Source: Roseovarius sp. Pro17 (GTDB lineage Bacteria > Pseudomonadota > Alphaproteobacteria > Rhodobacterales > Rhodobacteraceae). From it: a DNA stretch of 64,000 nt. The stretch spans positions 1,736,001-1,800,000 of the forward strand of contig NZ_CP141179.1 of the NCBI RefSeq assembly GCF_035599575.1, written 5' to 3'. The notes below the pieces were generated by a model that saw only the letters and a list, made by a program, of their open reading frames with translations, ran no database searches and was not told the DNA's origin. The translations under genes and the position numbers were made by a program. Positions 37,158 to 44,506 of the stretch are shown in pieces. Numbering within the stretch: position 1 is the first letter of the stretch; the number at the start of each line of letters is the position of its first letter.

Positions 37158-37955
37158 TTAGATTGAGCGGCTACTTTGACGGCCAAAGAGCTTTCCCTTG
37201 TTTAGGGCCGGTCCGCTCTCGACCCCACCGTCGGGAAGCAGAGATTCTTCGCCAACCTCCGACAACGCAAACGACTTGCGTTCATGGTCTTCAATGTCGG
37301 TCATGAAGTCCAAGAGGCGGTCACAAGAGTTCTTTATCTGGGCAATCATCGTAGCGAATTTCACTTCATCCGCTCGTGCAGATTGAAGAACACGAATCTG
37401 GCGCATCATTTTGAAAAGCATCGGCTTTATTTCGCTGGCACATTCTTTGGCAAAACAGTCCAGAACGATCTCGACCTTGCCCCGCATTATCTCTTCGGTT
37501 TCGAGATCGCGGTTAAGGCCTGCTTTTTGAAGGGCGTTTATCATGGCACGTCTGACGGATTCATTTGACAGATCATCCTTCATTAGGAAGTCACTGCACC
37601 CGTTCTTCATTGCGTTGATGGCGATTTCGGACTGGCCATCCCCAGTGACCATGATGGTGGCGGCGTTGCGATTACGCGGGTCAAACTGGATGGCATGGAG
37701 CGCCTGAAGTCCGTCACCTCCCGGCAAATGGTAGTCTACAAAAATCAGATCATAGGTCTCTAGCTGAAGCGCAGTCCCCATAGATTCGAGAGTATCCACC
37801 TCGGAAATACTAACCTCAAACTCTAGCTGTTCGCACATGCGCCGTAGGCGGGCCCGATCAAACCTCTGATCGTCGACGATCAGGATACTCGCGAATTTCG
37901 GTGTCTGAATCGCGGTTTTCTGAGCTCTTAACTGAATGTTCTGCATGTTCTTCAA
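37158..37955 (-). CDS. response regulator with unknown C-terminal domain
   Basis: A 265-residue protein. Residues about 22-145 form a receiver domain: acidic pair in ILIVDDQRFDR, phosphoacceptor Asp in FVDYHLPGGDG, Thr in MVTGDG and Lys in FLMKDDLSNES. The C-terminal 115 residues are helical (RGKVEIVLDCFAKECASEI and MIAQIKNSCDRLLDFMTDIE) with no DNA-binding or enzyme motif I know. It is the third gene of the minus-strand run after a histidine kinase and a single-domain receiver. It might control through protein contact or phosphotransfer. Confidence 0.85.
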   Translation of the reverse strand: MKNMQNIQLRAQKTAIQTPKFASILIVDDQRFDRARLRRMCEQLEFEVSISEVDTLESMGTALQLETYDLIFVDYHLPGGDGLQALHAIQFDPRNRNAATIMVTGDGQSEIAINAMKNGCSDFLMKDDLSNESVRRAMINALQKAGLNRDLETEEIMRGKVEIVLDCFAKECASEIKPMLFKMMRQIRVLQSARADEVKFATMIAQIKNSCDRLLDFMTDIEDHERKSFALSEVGEESLLPDGGVESGPALNKGKLFGRQSSRSI

Positions 37956-38089
37956 GGACCAGCTCCACTAATTATCTGATCAGAATTAAACCGCAAATTG
38001 ATGAAGTAAATCTCAAGAAATGCGTTGCTCTTTAAAATTGACGCTGTTTTGAACACGCAAGCCAGAACGCAGCAGGATACAGACTCTCC

Positions 38090-38551
38090 TTACCGCGGCA
38101 GCTCAACGACTTTGGTGTAGGCATCAATCATATCGAGTGCTTTTACGAAGCTATCACCCAGATTGTCCTTCACGATATATCCAGCAATATTGTTGTCATA
38201 CGCAGCCGCAACATCCCTAGGGGCGTCGGAGGTCGACAGCACAAAGATCACCGCGCGCTCAAGCTCGACATCTTTACGGATTTCCTCAAGAAACTCAAAC
38301 CCGTCCATGCGCGGCATGTTGAGATCGAGCGTAACCAGATAGGGTGGCATCAATCGATCATTTCCACATTCGCCGCGCAGAATGTCGAGCGCCTGCTGAC
38401 CATCCTTGGCGACGAATGTCGGATTGATGATGTTGAGCTTCTTCAATGCACGTTTGATGGCCATCACACTGACCTCGTCATCATCAACAATCAGGAATTT
38501 GATAGGATCGTCCTGCTGGTCGCAGAATAATTCGTGCCGAGGCGTATTCAT
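38090..38551 (-). CDS. single-domain response regulator (Rcp1-like)
   Basis: A 153-residue receiver-only protein with an N-terminal extension of 15 residues. Motifs: IKFLIVDDDEVS, phosphoacceptor Asp in VTLDLNMPRMDGFEF, Ser in FVLSTSDAPRD, and Lys in GYIVKDN. Like Rcp1-type regulators it lacks an output domain and probably acts as a phosphotransfer shuttle or through protein binding. Its start lies 23 bases beyond the histidine kinase stop, a clear operon. Confidence 0.92.
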   Translation of the reverse strand: MNTPRHELFCDQQDDPIKFLIVDDDEVSVMAIKRALKKLNIINPTFVAKDGQQALDILRGECGNDRLMPPYLVTLDLNMPRMDGFEFLEEIRKDVELERAVIFVLSTSDAPRDVAAAYDNNIAGYIVKDNLGDSFVKALDMIDAYTKVVELPR

Positions 38552-38574
38552 TTTCTTTGTTTCCCTTGTTTAGG

Positions 38575-40527
38575 CTATGCGGCCTGGTCCAATGATTGTG
38601 TTGCTACGAGTTTGGCAGGCATTTCGAACACGAACCGGGTGCCACGATGGACATCCGGATCGGATTGAACGCGGATCTTGCCATCATGATACTCCAGCAA
38701 CTTTCGAATGATCGCGAGGCCCAGACCACTTCCTTCAACCTCATCACGGGGCCGCAGGGTCTGGAACAGACCAAATATCTTGTCGTGATATTTCGCAGGA
38801 ATCCCTGGCCCGTCATCGTGCACAGAACATGAAAAACAATCGGCCATGAATTCTACTTTGACAGTAATCTGGCCAGTCTTTTTGTCGTGATGTTTGATGG
38901 CATTGTTGATCAGATTGAGAAGGATCTGACGAAGGGGCGTTGCATAGGTCACGACGCAATCACATGGGCCCAAAAATATAACTGGGAAATCGCCATTCGG
39001 ATCCAAAAACTCCGCTGTTTGTTTAACGACGGAGCTGATTGAAACCTCAACCAAGTGATCGGCATCCTTGCCGACGCGGGCGTATTCCAGCAGATCCTGC
39101 AACAACTGGTTAAGCCGATCAATGCGCTGTTTCACGAGCGACATGTTTTCGCGCCCTTCCTCGCAAAAGACGTTGTCGGGGTCCTCCAGCGTCCATTCTG
39201 TCAGATCTTGAATGGCCCGCAGTGGGGCGCGCAGATCATGCGCCGCAACATACGCAAATTTTTCCAGCTCTGCGTTAGAGCGGTGCAGCTCGTGTGCGTT
39301 CAGCTTGAACACGTCAAGCGCACTTGCCATCTTGCCCAGTTCATCAGGGCCAGAGACATCGACACGGTAAGACGTCTGGCCGGCCGCAATCGCGACGACG
39401 GCGTTCGTCAGACGCGCCATTCTTCTGTTGATCTGCCGCTCCACCACAAAGATCATCGCCCAGTAGATGACCATCAGCGAAAAGAACATTGACAGCGCCA
39501 GAATGATCGACATTTGCCGCGTGGCCGTGGTCAGGCCCTGTTTGGCATCCTCGATCTGCGCGCGGGCGGCATCCGTGAGCTGATTGGACAGGTTGGAGAT
39601 AGCCTCCACCGGGGTAAGTTGGGTTAGCTTGTCGGCGTCAAGGTTTGCCCGACGCACCTGAAGTTCCCGGACCGCGTTCCGGATTCCCTCGTCGTCAAAG
39701 ATAAGATCGCGTATGTGCAAGATCTTGCTTGCCATGTCTGTCCGCGCAGTGCCTTTTTCCAATTGCGCGACAAGACCGACAACGCCACGCAGCTTGAACT
39801 GCAGCGTGTTCGCAGCCCTCTCAAGCTCATTTTCCCCAGATATGTTGCGCAAGGAAACAGCCGTGTCGATAATCGCTTCGACCGCCAGTGCAATTTCGGT
39901 AAAAGCGTGGGCGACTACCAGATCGTGATGGTACTGTCGCTCGACTTCATCGGACCCGGTTGTCACACGAGCCGGATTCGTCTGAAGGGTGAAATTTGCA
40001 GAATTCGCCGTCTCAAATGAGACATCTTCGAGCAGCACACGCAAGGACACCCCAATATCCCGCAGGTTTTGTGTCTTTTGCGCAAGGGCGTTATCGTAGA
40101 GCAATACAGCCCGTGTCTCGGCGAGAATTTTCGTCGTGCCCTGATCGATCTTGTCCAGAGCCTGCGTCATATTGGTAAGGATGTTCGGCGAGCGTTCTGT
40201 ATCAAAAAACTCGCGGATGTTCGTTCGAAGTATTGAAAGCCTTTCGGTCAATTGTACGGATAAGGGACCAAGGTCCTCAATCCGATTGACTCCGTCCACC
40301 CGCTGCAACAGCAGCAGCAAGCTCTTCAGGTTTCGCTCGGTGTCTGCCGCACTTACGAAGACCGGCACCGAAGAATGCGCCAATTGATCCACTGAACGGC
40401 TGAGCGTGCGCAATTGAACGACGCCGACGGCCAATGCCCCAAGCAGAACGAGCGAAATTCCCAAGAACACCAAACGAAGTCGGGAGACGATGCCCTGCAC
40501 CTGCCAGAAATGGGTTCGGTCTGACAT
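38575..40527 (-). CDS. sensor histidine kinase with large helical periplasmic domain
   Basis: A 650-residue kinase. Membrane helix 19-38, an all-helical periplasmic domain of about 300 residues (39-338), second helix 339-362, HAMP 363-415, HisKA with phosphoacceptor His430 in YVAAHDLRAPLRA, and HATPase (N box LLNLINNAIKHH 536-547, G1 DDGPGIP 571-577, G2 GSGLGLAI 599-606). The large helical sensor between two membrane spans resembles TorS. It is divergent from a solute-binding-protein gene (122 bases) and leads two response-regulator genes. No receiver domain is fused. Confidence 0.93.
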   Translation of the reverse strand: MSDRTHFWQVQGIVSRLRLVFLGISLVLLGALAVGVVQLRTLSRSVDQLAHSSVPVFVSAADTERNLKSLLLLLQRVDGVNRIEDLGPLSVQLTERLSILRTNIREFFDTERSPNILTNMTQALDKIDQGTTKILAETRAVLLYDNALAQKTQNLRDIGVSLRVLLEDVSFETANSANFTLQTNPARVTTGSDEVERQYHHDLVVAHAFTEIALAVEAIIDTAVSLRNISGENELERAANTLQFKLRGVVGLVAQLEKGTARTDMASKILHIRDLIFDDEGIRNAVRELQVRRANLDADKLTQLTPVEAISNLSNQLTDAARAQIEDAKQGLTTATRQMSIILALSMFFSLMVIYWAMIFVVERQINRRMARLTNAVVAIAAGQTSYRVDVSGPDELGKMASALDVFKLNAHELHRSNAELEKFAYVAAHDLRAPLRAIQDLTEWTLEDPDNVFCEEGRENMSLVKQRIDRLNQLLQDLLEYARVGKDADHLVEVSISSVVKQTAEFLDPNGDFPVIFLGPCDCVVTYATPLRQILLNLINNAIKHHDKKTGQITVKVEFMADCFSCSVHDDGPGIPAKYHDKIFGLFQTLRPRDEVEGSGLGLAIIRKLLEYHDGKIRVQSDPDVHRGTRFVFEMPAKLVATQSLDQAA

Positions 40528-40649
40528 GCTATCCCTCGAATTACTCTGCCCAAATGATCTTTCCAGCTTAGCGCTCAGAAATTAATTGCGGCTTAAGTTT
40601 CTTCCGCAATGATCGTGATTGGACGGCGATTTTTGGGAAAGTAGTTAGC

Positions 40650-42125
40650 ATGAAAAACAACCATCCTCCTCGGGACGCGTGGACGCGCCGTGATGCGTTG
40701 TTGGGCATGACGGCAGCAAGCCTATGCGGGTTATCTGCGGCGTCGGCGACAGCCGCGCCTGATAGTGCGTTGCATGATGTTGTGGCGCGGCGCGTGCGTG
40801 AGCTGGCGGGTGGGCGAAAACTGAAGCTGCGGCTTCTGCTTCCCAATGGCTCGGGTGGCAACGTCAATCCAGTAATTGCCTATTTCACGCAGATGACTGG
40901 TGTAGATGTGCAGTCATTCGAGACGAATGTCGACGCGATCAACACCGAACTTTTGCTGGATACTTTAAGCGCGTCGCGAAAATACGATGTGGCGCTCCCC
41001 GCGACATTCGGTCTGCCCGACCTCGTGGCGGCCGACGCGATTTTGCCAATCACAGACTTTGCAAATCAGTATGAGCCGCCCGGTTTTCGCGACAAAATCT
41101 TGTTTGGGGTTGGCGACAGCTTCGACGACAAGCTGTACGGATTCCAGACCGATGGCGACGCCTACATGATGTTCTACCACAAGGGGATGCTGGAAAACCT
41201 AGACGAGCAGATGCGCTTTGAAGACACGTTCGGACAGCGCCTGTCGATACCCCAGACGTGGCAAGACCTTGATCGACAAATGGCTTTTTTCAACCGACCC
41301 GACGAGGGCCAATGGGGCGGTTTTCTTTTCAGAACGCCGGGATATGTCGCGTCGGAATGGTGGGTCAGGTTTCACGCCAAAGGGATCTGGCCGTTCTCGT
41401 CTGAAATGGAGCCTCAAATTGCCTCTCCAGCCGGTGTTGAAGCCCTGGAAGAAATGATCCGTGCGTCCGAGCACCTTTGTCCAGAAGCATCCAATATCGG
41501 CCTGTTCGAAAACTGGGAGCGGTTCGGGCGCGGGGATATTTTTTGTAATATCGGCTGGGGTGGAACGCAGAAATACCTCAATGGCCCCAACTCCGCGATG
41601 CGCGGAAATATGCTGTATGGCCCGACACCCGGCGGGATCGTCGATGGAAAGCTCTTAGTGACGCCCTACTTCAATTGGGGCTGGAATTACGTCGTGACCA
41701 GCAATAGCGAGCTGCCCGAAATCGCCTACCTGTTCGCCCTCTTTGCCTCAACACCCCAGATGTCGACGCTAGCCGTTCGGCAGAAGGATGGCTTTTTCGA
41801 CCCCTTCCGCCCCGAACATTACGAAGACGAGGGGATCGAGGCCGCCTACACGCCGGAGTTTTTATCTGTGCACCGCGCAAGTCTGGAGGCCGCCATTCCG
41901 GACCTGTACCTGCAAAATCAAGGTGAATATTTTCGAGTCCTCACCGAATGGCTTAGCCGCGCGCTGTCAGGCGAGACGCCGCCGCAAAAAGCGCTGGACC
42001 GCGTGGCGCAAAGGTGGCGACTGATCACGAACGCGTCAGGGCCGTCCGTTCAGCAAGAGCGATGGATGCGCTTGCGTAATAAATATCCAGCGCCAATCCG
42101 TGACGCACTCGGGGATATTGCCTGA
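40650..42125 (+). CDS. Tat-exported extracellular solute-binding protein, no transporter
   Basis: A 491-residue periplasmic binding protein of the family 1 (sugar-type) fold. Residues 1-36 form a Tat signal (WTRRDALLGMTAASLCGL...AAP). Typical segments are PNGSGGNVNPVIAYFTQMTG, DLVAADAILPITDFA, YGFQTDGDAYMMFYHKGML split here as GFQTDGDAYMMFYHKG, and GDIFCNIGWGGTQKYL. No permease or ATPase gene is adjacent; the neighbours are a divergent histidine kinase and a co-directional cytosolic kinase 67 bases on. It may serve as the ligand sensor for the kinase. Ligand unknown. Confidence 0.88.
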   Translation: MKNNHPPRDAWTRRDALLGMTAASLCGLSAASATAAPDSALHDVVARRVRELAGGRKLKLRLLLPNGSGGNVNPVIAYFTQMTGVDVQSFETNVDAINTELLLDTLSASRKYDVALPATFGLPDLVAADAILPITDFANQYEPPGFRDKILFGVGDSFDDKLYGFQTDGDAYMMFYHKGMLENLDEQMRFEDTFGQRLSIPQTWQDLDRQMAFFNRPDEGQWGGFLFRTPGYVASEWWVRFHAKGIWPFSSEMEPQIASPAGVEALEEMIRASEHLCPEASNIGLFENWERFGRGDIFCNIGWGGTQKYLNGPNSAMRGNMLYGPTPGGIVDGKLLVTPYFNWGWNYVVTSNSELPEIAYLFALFASTPQMSTLAVRQKDGFFDPFRPEHYEDEGIEAAYTPEFLSVHRASLEAAIPDLYLQNQGEYFRVLTEWLSRALSGETPPQKALDRVAQRWRLITNASGPSVQQERWMRLRNKYPAPIRDALGDIA

Positions 42126-42192
42126 GCTCACGCAACCGACTTTGCAGACATAACAACCGTCCATATGTGACTTCAAGATTTGTAGGTAGACA

Positions 42193-42942
42193 ATGAGCAT
42201 CAATACCAAACGCCAACCCCACCACGCAGAATTGCAAGAGCTTGACGCGGATTCCGGCTCCGAGGATTTTGAAGAATTCGTTTACCTGCTGAGCCACGAC
42301 ATTCGCAACTCCGTGCGCGCCTTGCTGGAATTGCCACAGTGGATCAGAGAAGATTTGGCCGCCACAGGTCATCGCATCGATGGATCACTGGCCGAGAGCT
42401 TTGATCTTATGGACACCCAGACGCGGCGGTTGGATCGCATGTTGGTGGACTTGCTGGCCTATTCTCGCATCGGGCGCAAACAATCTGTGCAATCCATGAA
42501 TTTGGCAGAGACGATCCGCGAGATCATCACTGAATTGCGTCCGCCAAAAGGTTTCCAAATCACGTGCGATCTGGATTGCATGACCGTTCAGATGGGAGAG
42601 CAGGACATTTTTACATTGCTGACGGCGCTGATCTCCAACGCGATCAAGCATCATCACAAGGAAGGTGGGATTATTCAAATAAAGTCTTGGAGCGAGGGAA
42701 GGGATTGCGTCATTCGCGTCCAAGACGATGGCCCCGGCATTCCCGAACGGCAGCGCGAGCGGGTCTTCGCCGCCATGACGACCCTCAAACCGCGCGATGA
42801 AGTCGAAGGTAGTGGAATGGGATTACCCATCGTTCGCAAGATCGTCGCCGTCTATGGCGGGCGCGTGAGCTATGGCAGTATCCATGACGGCTCGGGCACA
42901 GCTTTGGAAATACGCCTCGGCGCTGGGCTTTCGCGTATCTAA
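42193..42942 (+). CDS. cytosolic sensor histidine kinase
   Basis: A 249-residue kinase without membrane segments or a recognisable sensor domain. HisKA carries His35 in FVYLLSHDIRNSVRALLEL; HATPase shows LLTALISNAIKHHHKEG (N box), DDGPGIPE (G1) and GSGMGLPI (G2). Its core is similar to the C-terminal part of the membrane kinase encoded 1.7 kb away (both have LKPRDEVEGSG or LRPRDEVEGSG), so one may derive from the other. It follows the solute-binding-protein gene and probably feeds the same response regulators. Confidence 0.9.
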   Translation: MSINTKRQPHHAELQELDADSGSEDFEEFVYLLSHDIRNSVRALLELPQWIREDLAATGHRIDGSLAESFDLMDTQTRRLDRMLVDLLAYSRIGRKQSVQSMNLAETIREIITELRPPKGFQITCDLDCMTVQMGEQDIFTLLTALISNAIKHHHKEGGIIQIKSWSEGRDCVIRVQDDGPGIPERQRERVFAAMTTLKPRDEVEGSGMGLPIVRKIVAVYGGRVSYGSIHDGSGTALEIRLGAGLSRI

Positions 42943-43095
42943 CCCTTCTAAGATCTTGCGATATTGAGGAGGCGCAAATTCAATGTCTGCTCGGCAAGTA
43001 CTCTTTCAGGTTCCGCGCTTAAAGCACTGCGCTGAGCCTGTCACGATTTTGTGCCGCTCCTTTGATAGCATATTCTGCAACGGGGGATATGAACT

Positions 43096-43271
43096 GTGGG
43101 ACAGATACGGAGGGACCACTTCCGCAATAATGGGGTGCGTATCACTCTCATCAGTCGACTGGCAAACAAACAGGTGGCGAACGATCTTGGTGCCGGCATG
43201 CCGACGCTGAATAAGTGGATCACCTGGCATCGAGAAGCGGATGTTGTATCAAAAGAAGATCTGAGCCTTGG
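43096..43271 (+). pseudogene. IS3-family transposase OrfA, 5' fragment
   Basis: From GTG 43096 the frame reads MGQIRRDHFRNNGVRITL, then VANDLGAGMPTLNKWITWHR and EADVVSKEDLSLG. This is the helix-turn-helix half of an IS3-type OrfA; similarity stops after EDLSL, where unrelated sequence begins. The dimerisation half and OrfB are missing. No terminal repeat is visible. Confidence 0.7.
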
Positions 43272-43385
43272 GTCCAAACTCTATGGTTTAGTCGCTTTCA
43301 TGACCGCCTGCACATCTCAACCCGTGAGTACTCGCGGACCGTCAGCGATTGGCTCACGTCGATCGATTTGGAAACGACGACCTGA
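43272..43385 (+). pseudogene. tyrosine recombinase (integrase) fragment
   Basis: Directly after the OrfA fragment, in another frame, the plus strand reads LWFSRFHDRLHISTREYSRT then VSDWLTSIDLETTT and a TGA at 43383-43385. This matches the segment just before the catalytic HSxRR box of the small phage-type integrases frequent in alphaproteobacteria. The catalytic residues themselves are absent, so it is a dead remnant of a mobile element. Confidence 0.55.
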
Positions 43386-43452
43386 ACTGGCCCTGCATTT
43401 TCCGACAAGTTTGCGGAATAGTTAAGATGCATTTGATTTTTGCTCGTGCTGT

Positions 43453-44224
43453 TTATTGTGCCATCGCTTGGATGAAATATGCAGCGGCGGCCGTGCGCTT
43501 ATCAAGGGCAGTATGAGAGCGCTCTAATTTGTAGAAACCGATCCAATTGTTAATGATCCGCTTGACTTGGAATCCATCGGTGATCTCGTGCAGATTGACG
43601 GCCTCCTGTTTCAGAGATCGCCAAAGGCGTTCGATAAACATGCTGTCTAATAACGGCTCCGCCCATTAATTACCGGCAGGTGGTTTGTAGAATCACCGCG
43701 CGGCATTGAGGTATTGATATCGGCCTTGGTCAACGTCGACATCCAACCAGCGCCTGTGCCTTGGCTGCCTTGATTTATATTCATTATCTCCAGCTTGCCG
43801 TATCGGGCGATTACGCCCGCCAGCTCTTCGACGCAAAAGCTGGCGTCCAGCGTGTTGTAAAGCCGCTAGGGCAGAATTTTGCGGGTTGTCCAATCCATGA
43901 TTGCTACCAGATACGGAATCCCTATTTCATGGGGATGTATGTGATGCCGCTACACCAGACCTGATTGGGCCGCGTGATTGCTAGCTTTCTCAGCATGTAT
44001 GGATAAATGCTGCGCTGCGGTTGTTTCTTGCTGGTGTTTGGGCCTTTTCAGATAGCCTGAAAACGCCGGCCATGCCTTCAATCGCCTGCCGCTTACATGT
44101 GTTAACCTGCATTGGATGCAGTTGCCGCTTGGCTGCGACCTCTTAAACCGTCTTGTCGCCGCGCAGGGCCTCCAAGCGCCGCAGCAGTCTTGAACTTATC
44201 CGAAAAGTTCGGTCGCTCCGTCAT
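43453..44224 (-). mobile_element. decayed IS3-family element (orfA and orfB remnants)
   Basis: On the minus strand, an ATG at 44224 starts MTERPNFSDKFKTAAAL; after a frameshift it continues LEALRGDKTV, a stop in place of Gln, then EVAAKRQLHPMQVNTCKRQA and IEGMAGVFRL, a typical OrfA. After a deletion the OrfB core follows as SIYPYMLRKLAITRPNQVW and CSGITYIPMK with a stop, then broken frames to MFIERLWRSLKQEAVNLHE and ERSHTALDKRTAAAAYF, ending at 43453. Several stops and frameshifts make it inactive. Terminal repeats were not found. Confidence 0.75.
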
Positions 44225-44389
44225 TCTCGTATCCATTCATCTGCGTTGGATACATCTTAGCACGCCGTTTAATTTCGCCGGACCACTTCGGTCTACGACA
44301 CTCTTTCGATGCGGCGGACCAAGGTATCCTAGATTCAGAAGAGGACTGACAACTTGCGGGCCGGTCAAGTCTTGTTGAGGTAACTCAAG

Positions 44390-44506
44390 ATGGATAGCAC
44401 AATCAAATATCTCGACATTGACTCAGAAGATGCCTTTGCGATTGTAGAATCCGTTGAATTGCAATCGTTTTGTCCGCTCGAGATAACTTGGCAAAGGAGT
44501 CCCTAA
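44390..44506 (+). CDS. candidate leader peptide ORF upstream of doxX-like gene
   Basis: A 38-codon frame MDSTIKYLDIDSEDAFAIVE... ends in TAATG, sharing its last A with the start of the DoxX-family gene. TGAGG lies 9 bases before the ATG. The stop-start overlap would couple translation. It has no membrane segment or known motif. May be spurious. Confidence 0.35.
   Translation: MDSTIKYLDIDSEDAFAIVESVELQSFCPLEITWQRSP

Follow-up and report, generated by a model that had tools for sequence, protein, structure and literature searches.

Why, in the marine bacterium Roseovarius sp. Pro17, does the gene for a solute-binding protein (SBP) with no permease of its own nearby stand back to back with that of a membrane histidine kinase? 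We addressed this question in the window, i.e., the whole 64,000-nucleotide stretch of DNA that was analysed, for which a first-pass annotation had proposed a five-gene phosphorelay driven by the binding protein. All five open reading frames that it had delineated proved intact, and the features of the locus are as follows:

37158-37955, minus strand: RR2, a Pfam Response_reg receiver (Asp74) with a helical hairpin tail; the listed start codon, TTG, is an uncertain assignment
38090-38551, minus strand: RR1, a single-domain response regulator, Pfam Response_reg receiver only, with Asp76 assigned by position
38575-40527, minus strand: HK1, a membrane histidine kinase with a TorS-type helical periplasmic sensor, HAMP, HisKA (His430) and HATPase_c
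39508-40407, minus strand: the HK1 periplasmic sensor domain of predicted TorS fold, approximately residues 41-340, the ends being approximate and read from the sequence
40528-40649, no strand: the 122 bp that separate the divergently oriented hk1 and sbp, where both promoters presumably lie
40650-42125, plus strand: the SBP, an intact ORF with Tat-type export, SBP_bac_8/SBP_bac_1 (maltose-binding-protein, MBP, type)
42193-42942, plus strand: HK2, a soluble histidine kinase core with HATPase_c and His35 and without a sensor domain

A search of the 122-bp intergenic region recovered no sigma-70-like site and no consensus promoter.

The arrangement present here, in which the SBP gene adjoins those for a membrane kinase and a regulator, is the one by which three-component systems are recognized. 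HK1 matches HAMP, HisKA and HATPase_c in Pfam and ends after the last of these, whereas HK2 matches HATPase_c, with HisKA slightly below the cut-off. As neither an HPt domain nor a hybrid kinase was found by Pfam among the five proteins, the label of phosphorelay is not supported. Likewise, no DNA-binding domain was detected in RR1 or RR2, the receiver being the sole Pfam match of each. The structure predicted for the HK1 sensor consists of helices only and finds its best structural matches in TorS (PDB 3o1h/3o1i/3o1j, 3i9w, 3i9y), followed by a group that includes the sensor domains of McpS and PilJ; thus, the modelled sensor is of the TorS-type helical fold, bearing out the earlier description of a TorS-like periplasmic part with some 300 helical residues. 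The Pfam model for this domain (PF21689, TorS_sensor_domain) is matched at E <= 0.1 by 9 of 31 relatives (best 5.8e-13) and not by the Pro17 HK1; the best score in the Pro17 genome, 13 bits, lies at a place other than HK1. At L040 and L041, the outer part is clearly shorter, with membrane segments near 5 and 233.

The SBP exceeds the Pfam cut-offs for both SBP_bac_8 (42 bits) and SBP_bac_1 (32 bits), in agreement with the initial view that its type is unlike that of TorT. Its signal peptide carries TRRDALLGM, and R13 and R14 are each conserved at a level of at least 90% in both SBP groups described below (alignment of 41 and 9 rows, omitting L006, L055 and undecided rows), which fits Tat export, as had been proposed. 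A membrane sensor gene adjoins the SBP gene in 41 of 57 relatives, collected with peptides derived from the Pro17 locus and counted with a sensor HMM whose own training set comprised 37 of the 39 partners that it counts. The diverse lineages that keep this neighbor include Alphaproteobacteria, Gammaproteobacteria, Bdellovibrionota and one Planctomycetota bin, and its frequency indicates that the pairing goes beyond chance. Several loci appear to be duplicate places (L004=L010=L103, L005=L104, L023=L098, L036=L102 and L043=L101); L004 and L010 are the sole such pair with both members inside the 57. An RR1-like receiver lies within 6 kb in 26 of the 41 sensor-linked loci; a match is absent in the other 15, two of which (L004 and L005) are fetches too short, with the match present in the longer fetches (L103 and L104). 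At L058, the RR1 gene lies between those for the SBP and the sensor.

Thus, from the five-gene set first envisaged, the link between SBP and sensor stood, whereas HK2 and RR2 fall outside the core of the system, for they accompany it almost only in Rhodobacterales among the loci examined. At one of these loci, L008, an ABC-ATPase gene lies about 190 bp behind the HK2 gene. The helical tail of RR2 could conceivably be a decayed DHp-like hairpin that has lost its histidine and pairs with kinases or competes for them, a doubtful idea that concerns RR2 alone and is compatible with a binding-protein-dependent system. It is consistent with a predicted model of a receiver followed by helices at 131-193, 197-221 and 224-237, with top multi-domain structural matches to REC-kinase hybrids (a dual-sensor kinase and LvrB) besides PorX and NtrX, and with varied residues at the expected His position in relatives. 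Against it, a profile comparison with the DHp of HK1, though full-length, gave a non-significant P of 0.016 next to a control P of 0.018 over 17 columns, that with the DHp of HK2 gave a P of 0.17, and a second list of structural matches covered almost exclusively the receiver.

Could the SBP nevertheless be an ordinary subunit of an ABC importer whose permeases are encoded elsewhere, placed next to the kinase by chance or since the kinase regulates the importer? The genome offers 103 PF00528 permease matches, and SBP homologs stand next to MalFG-type permeases at 11 of the 57 loci, a finding which the first-pass annotation had named in advance as adverse to its proposal. Further, 88 SBP positions hold the same residue with at least 90% conservation in the sensor-linked and ABC-linked groups alike, indicating that the binding fold is unchanged. 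However, a single branch with a support of 100/99 divides the two groups in the SBP tree (which omits L059 and L060), setting those 11 loci apart from the sensor-linked ones, so that the adverse finding is mixed and does not refute the proposal; the sensor neighbor is kept across all the lineages named above; and the PF00528 matches closest to the Pro17 SBP (C1:1776650-1778122) end at 1721355 (about 55 kb away) on one side and begin at 1861994 (about 84 kb) on the other. A genome-wide search with this one family thus found no cognate permease within about 55 kb, upholding the earlier remark that the SBP lacks a transporter of its own nearby. Hence, we consider the importer interpretation unlikely and infer that the SBP is dedicated to sensing and not to transport.

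Also improbable is that the helical bundle of HK1 senses a small ligand directly in the manner of the HBM chemoreceptors, with the SBP being incidental. The presence of McpS and PilJ among the next structural matches would favor this, as HBM-type sensors of similar fold (McpS) bind ligands directly; so would the 19 of 26 chemoreceptors with this type of sensor that have no SBP gene within 600 bp. However, the kinases differ from the chemoreceptors: TorS-type kinases do occur elsewhere without an SBP of the Pro17 type, as the original proposal had worried, yet 12 of 14 such kinases adjoin another kind of SBP. These counts come from 40 further sensor loci that were hand-picked, not drawn at random, from the upper part of the matches listed, with the neighbor search using models built from SBPs previously found beside sensors; 34 were sorted into kinases and chemoreceptors by motif alone and six by Pfam, and L136, which carries the motifs of both, was counted as a chemoreceptor. 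Moreover, the best structural matches are to TorS, which requires TorT for sensing. A dual role, in which the SBP supplies a distant permease and also signals via HK1, has precedents in single chitin and citrate SBPs, as cited in the available part of PMC10384115, but it is similarly improbable, given that the sensor-linked SBPs are not accompanied by a MalFG-type transporter pair (L058 has permease-like genes 6-8 kb off) and that some positions invariant in the ABC-linked group (e.g., 99, 293 and 443) have largely disappeared from the sensor-linked one.

We therefore regard it as probable that the RR1/HK1/SBP locus encodes a binding-protein-dependent two-component system, in which a relative of uptake-pump components seems to have been turned into a “nose” dedicated to a TorS-type membrane sensor. 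The SBP would close on a small periplasmic solute, probably a sugar or polyol, and dock on the helical HK1 sensor; once docked with its ligand, the SBP would shift the sensor bundle and, via HAMP, the kinase core, and, by analogy with TorT-TorS, the altered phosphorylation of His430 would alter that of RR1. The output would proceed through protein-protein contact instead of DNA binding; since REC-GGDEF-EAL proteins are encoded at similar loci in some other lineages, the foremost guess for those lineages is an output through cyclic-di-GMP control. The SBP tree suggests descent from an ABC-importer subunit that was exapted once, with the Rhodobacterales presumably gaining the sensor-less HK2 and the hairpin-tailed RR2 as, most likely, a second input or modulator of the same regulator pool. 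Several observations count against this binding-protein-dependent interpretation: the lack of a PF21689 match at E <= 0.1 in the Pro17 HK1; the missing RR1 matches in 15 of 41 loci; direct ligand binding by HBM-type sensors; and the ABC-ATPase gene at L008. Once the kinase core is accounted for, SBP and sensor distances show a positive but low partial correlation (0.26, a value reached in 3 of 2000 permutations), as against 0.71 for SBP with kinase-core distances given the sensor. Finally, adjacency of sbp and kinase genes is not always a functional link: in the portion of PMC11113362 available, the SBP_bac_8 proteins PA0602 and AgtB are described as not binding the sensor domain of AgtS, which is of another type, SBP_bac_3.

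Beyond this locus, we lean slightly towards a joint interpretation wherein the TorS-type sensor acts as a reading head for venus-flytrap proteins in general, having been re-paired with at least four unrelated superfamilies (TorT-like, leucine-type Peripla_BP_6, TRAP DctP and the MBP-type family of Pro17) and with several outputs (kinase, chemoreceptor and GGDEF-EAL); the ABC sugar-type SBP would have been recruited once as a dedicated sensing subunit and then spread by horizontal transfer, as its patchy distribution suggests. If one sensor fold indeed reads unrelated SBP folds, the contact must rely on features that venus-flytrap proteins share upon closure, and the adjacent SBP gene could provide a guess at the ligand class for many uncharacterized kinases and for some chemoreceptors. 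With their clean division, the ABC-linked and sensor-linked SBPs also offer an example of a transport component converted to sensing, and comparing the two groups might separate ligand-site from partner-contact residues.

Among known systems, TorT-TorS, which senses TMAO, provides the structural model for a binding protein driving a kinase. It shares with Pro17 the fold of the kinase sensor and an adjacently encoded periplasmic binding protein, the presumed ligand reader. However, TorS is a hybrid kinase with a receiver and an HPt domain and TorR a DNA-binding regulator, whereas the Pro17 HK1 lacks a receiver or HPt, RR1 and RR2 lack DNA-binding domains, and the binding protein is of the MBP type (SBP_bac_8/1) instead of the TorT type (Peripla_BP_1/4). 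ChvE-VirA, in which a sugar-binding protein signals through a membrane kinase, likewise resembles the Pro17 pairing as commonly described; ChvE is of the Peripla_BP_4 type and also serves transport. In the phosphoglycerate-sensing PgtC-PgtB system, a binding-protein-like regulator acts with a membrane kinase; a PgtB model matches HK1 in the kinase region only (best stretch 455-623, 71 bits against a cut-off of 1000), and a search of 299 genomes from this phylum at E <= 1e-120 recovered no PgtB, with the E. coli control being positive. The ABC importers with MalFG and two UgpC-type ATPases (L026, L030-L032, L034, L035, L038 and L051) have homologous SBPs, 44-52% identical to that of Pro17 by best segment, which, unlike the latter, are encoded inside the transporter operon; no sensor gene was found adjoining the SBP gene in these loci, two of which (L026 and L032) include a gene for a HisD-family dehydrogenase. 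In the cellobiose-responsive CuaD-CuaS-CuaR system of Ruminiclostridium, the accessible part of PMC10384115 describes a second, sensing-only family 1 SBP with a membrane kinase of 627 residues, CuaS, whose outer part is modelled with beta sheets (alpha-beta-alpha), and a regulator, CuaR, with a helix-turn-helix domain; the target ABC operon adjoins cuaDSR. As far as that description goes, Pro17 shares with it a family 1 SBP next to a membrane kinase and apart from a transport SBP, its own sensing-only role being presumed, and differs in the modelled all-helical TorS fold of the HK1 sensor. The TorS sensor fold often adjoins quite different kinds of binding proteins in other bacteria, and the Pro17 pairing of an MBP-type SBP with a TorS-type kinase is unlike that with TorT.

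The gene set of the window is real and conserved, and is built around two divergent genes, 122 bp apart, for a Tat-type exported solute-binding protein (SBP) and a membrane histidine kinase (HK1). Together with a soluble kinase (HK2) and two response regulators (RR1 and RR2), they make up five open reading frames (ORFs), all confirmed where the first-pass annotation had placed them:

37158-37955, minus strand: RR2, ORF 134 bp behind RR1, Pfam receiver domain
38090-38551, minus strand: RR1, ORF 23 bp behind HK1, Pfam receiver domain
38575-40527, minus strand: HK1, ORF, Pfam HAMP-HisKA-HATPase_c
40650-42125, plus strand: SBP, ORF, Pfam SBP_bac_8/SBP_bac_1
42193-42942, plus strand: HK2, ORF 67 bp behind the SBP, Pfam HATPase_c, with HisKA just below the cut-off

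The Pfam matches bear out the proposed identity of the SBP, and the fold of the predicted HK1 model agrees with the sensor claimed for it, which resembles that of TorS from the known TorT-TorS pair. Judged by sequence, the catalytic residues of the kinases and regulators look intact: HK1 has the same His430, Asn538/542 and G boxes in all of 28 sequences, the window's included; in RR2, Asp74 never varies over 47 sequences and Lys126 hardly does; and His35 of HK2 and Asp76 of RR1 were assigned by reading the sequence. In four of the loci fetched for comparison (L009, L010, L103 and L104; L010 and L103 are apparently the same place) HK2 is followed by a second RR2-type gene, where the window has a gene-poor stretch. 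The latter spans ~1.5 kb (42943-44470) and holds a fragment of an integrase-core (rve_3) transposase (43453-43641, minus strand).

The claim that the SBP has no transporter beside it also held: a genome-wide search confined to permeases of the PF00528 family gave 103 matches, of which the nearest are ~55 kb away on the upstream side of the SBP and ~84 kb away on the downstream side. We inspected 57 SBP loci, 54 from a search of genome contigs and three from congeners (L004 and L010 represent one genome). In 39 of these the gene adjoining the SBP (in L058, the next but one) codes for a membrane sensor matching a hidden Markov model of the HK1 sensor, which was itself built from 37 of the 39, chosen by similarity to HK1, with L029 and L047 independent of it. 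Two more (L045 and L048) have a hybrid kinase or pieces thereof after the SBP, with no match to this model; in 11 the SBP sits among ABC transporter genes (L036 and L055 only partially, at contig ends), and the remaining five are truncated or lack an informative neighbor. Most of the ABC-linked operons code for MalF/MalG-type permeases and two UgpC-type ATPases, and six carry Rbs-type ATPase and permease genes upstream. The gene run of L026 further includes a Peripla_BP_4 SBP, a metallo-beta-lactamase-fold protein, a HisD-family dehydrogenase (a family also present in L032) and a malic-enzyme-like protein. Both Rbs-like and MalFG-like (two ATPases) importer genes occur within one gene run in L026 (1458-13496) and in L030-L032. 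A MalF/MalG-type permease pair adjoins the SBP in none of the sensor-linked loci; other ABC genes lie ~1-8 kb from the SBP in L008, L015, L019, L033, L048 and L058, that for the ATPase in L008 beginning ~190 bp behind HK2. A tree built from 56 SBPs has a branch with support of 100/99 that sets the 11 ABC-linked rows apart from all 41 sensor-linked rows (the window included) and four undecided ones; the distant L006, a very long branch, joins the ABC side. Given this separation, the simplest reading is that an SBP of ABC transporters was exapted once for sensing.

The trehalose/maltose-binding protein 1eu8 is the sole solved relative of the SBP recovered by sequence search. D170, W303 and W345 of the SBP align with one Asp and two Trp of 1eu8, residues of a kind that we take to line its sugar pocket. 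At 88 positions both SBP groups, of 41 and 9 rows, conserve the identical residue at 90% or more; these positions include the Tat-signal RR, D168-G169-D170, W303-G304-G305 and W343-G344-W345-N346. Sensor-linked and ABC-linked proteins therefore likely recognize a related class of ligand.

At E <= 1e-12 the HK1-sensor profile finds matches in 99 of 385 genomes from the class, and many of the weaker ones span just the last third of the profile, where HAMP lies. Around strong matches outside the known SBP loci we took 40 stretches, hand-picked from the upper part of the match list rather than at random. None of the 40 has a gene matching the window-type SBP profile (E <= 0.01); in 19 the sensor gene has an SBP gene of a different superfamily no more than 600 bp from it, and a single SBP-type gene lies at least 1200 bp away. 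These neighbors are TorT-like Peripla_BP_1/4 proteins in L137, L138 and L141, Peripla_BP_6 proteins in 12 loci and DctP proteins in L140, L142, L149 and L175, and Pfam confirmed every one of the 18 SBP genes on which it was run; these cover 17 of the loci, with two genes from L147 and none from L144 or L145. By sensor output, 12 of 14 kinases and seven of 26 chemoreceptors have an SBP neighbor. In L143, L152, L162, L163, L172, L173 and L175, chemoreceptors combine a TorS-type sensor with a Peripla_BP_6 or DctP SBP alongside; in L158 (4582-12271), three consecutive long ORFs of 724-759 residues correspond to three TorS-type sensor matches. A tree of 50 sensors implies five changes of SBP family, the minimum possible being three. 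The DctP-linked sensor of L140 and the Peripla_BP_6-linked one of L150 are sisters (100/98), and a weakly supported branch (72/59) separates the 31 MBP-type-linked sensors from the others. The deep order of this tree is unsure because many end branches are long. Some of the SBPs beside TorS-type sensors may also serve a transporter. In the literature searched, which included few subscription journals, we found neither the TorS-type sensor fold described as a general SBP reader nor the pairing of an MBP-type SBP with a TorS-type sensor.

The SBP is rare and patchy: at E <= 1e-80 a search of 385 genomes from the class finds it in six, its own counted. Three of 35 congeners have a match, which in two is a close orthologue, at 62 and 66% identity, and in the third a distant one. 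All three loci new from the class search (L097, L099 and L100) are sensor-linked. Two SBP-sensor pairs of the window's family occur in the genome of L099 (G370), the second of them next to a GGDEF-EAL protein. Of the 41 sensor-linked loci, 26 have an RR1-like receiver within 6 kb, 11 a soluble kinase resembling HK2 and 10 an RR2-like regulator; by record titles the HK2 and RR2 matches are all from Rhodobacterales, except a weak HK2-like gene in L037. Across 12 Rhodobacterales loci selected for holding HK2- or RR2-like genes (the window included), SBP, HK1, RR1 and HK2 are common to all and RR2 is missing in L033 alone. Among families containing the window, L008, L010 or L104, no further one was common to at least three other Rhodobacterales loci, except ORFs antisense to the five. 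Over 23 loci the distances of SBP, kinase core and RR1 correlate at 0.85-0.91, as for a unit that would be jointly inherited; those of the sensor correlate lower (0.74-0.77), its mean identity falling to 16%.

A search with RR2 gave 73 proteins, 66 of which (P0121-P0186) resemble one small family, with all named source organisms in Rhodobacterales bar one gammaproteobacterial bin (P0166). The predicted model of RR2 shows a receiver followed by one long helix (131-193) and then a hairpin (197-237); among its matches to multi-domain proteins are a dual-sensor kinase, LvrB, PorX and NtrX. We suspect a decayed DHp hairpin in this tail, because many other residues occupy the place of the histidine; profile comparison of the tail with DHp gave no significant support. 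Neither RR1 nor RR2 has a Pfam match to a DNA-binding domain. A GGDEF-EAL protein is encoded in nine of 41 sensor-linked versus none of 11 ABC-linked loci, in fetched stretches of unequal length, and REC-GGDEF-EAL was confirmed by Pfam in L021, L033 and L037; those nine loci offer a hint, and only that, that cyclic-di-GMP could be an output except in most of the window's lineage. In L029 (5318-7897), an SBP of the window's family is paired with a membrane GGDEF-EAL protein bearing a TorS-like sensor, possibly a binding-protein-controlled cyclic-di-GMP enzyme.

The gene set, the split between contexts and, as a predicted model, the sensor fold are established in this analysis. Most likely the window's set represents a binding-protein-dependent two-component system, a kind already known, wherein the SBP, holding a ligand of the class we infer, would dock on the HK1 sensor and so affect HK1, which would target RR1, with HK2 and RR2 as a putative added branch. 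Gene adjacency can mislead as a guide to SBP-kinase partnership, according to one report (PMC11113362). In another (PMC10384115), the family 1 SBP CuaD is described as binding a kinase and assisting it; the sensor domain of that kinase is alpha/beta, in contrast to the TorS-like fold of the HK1 model.
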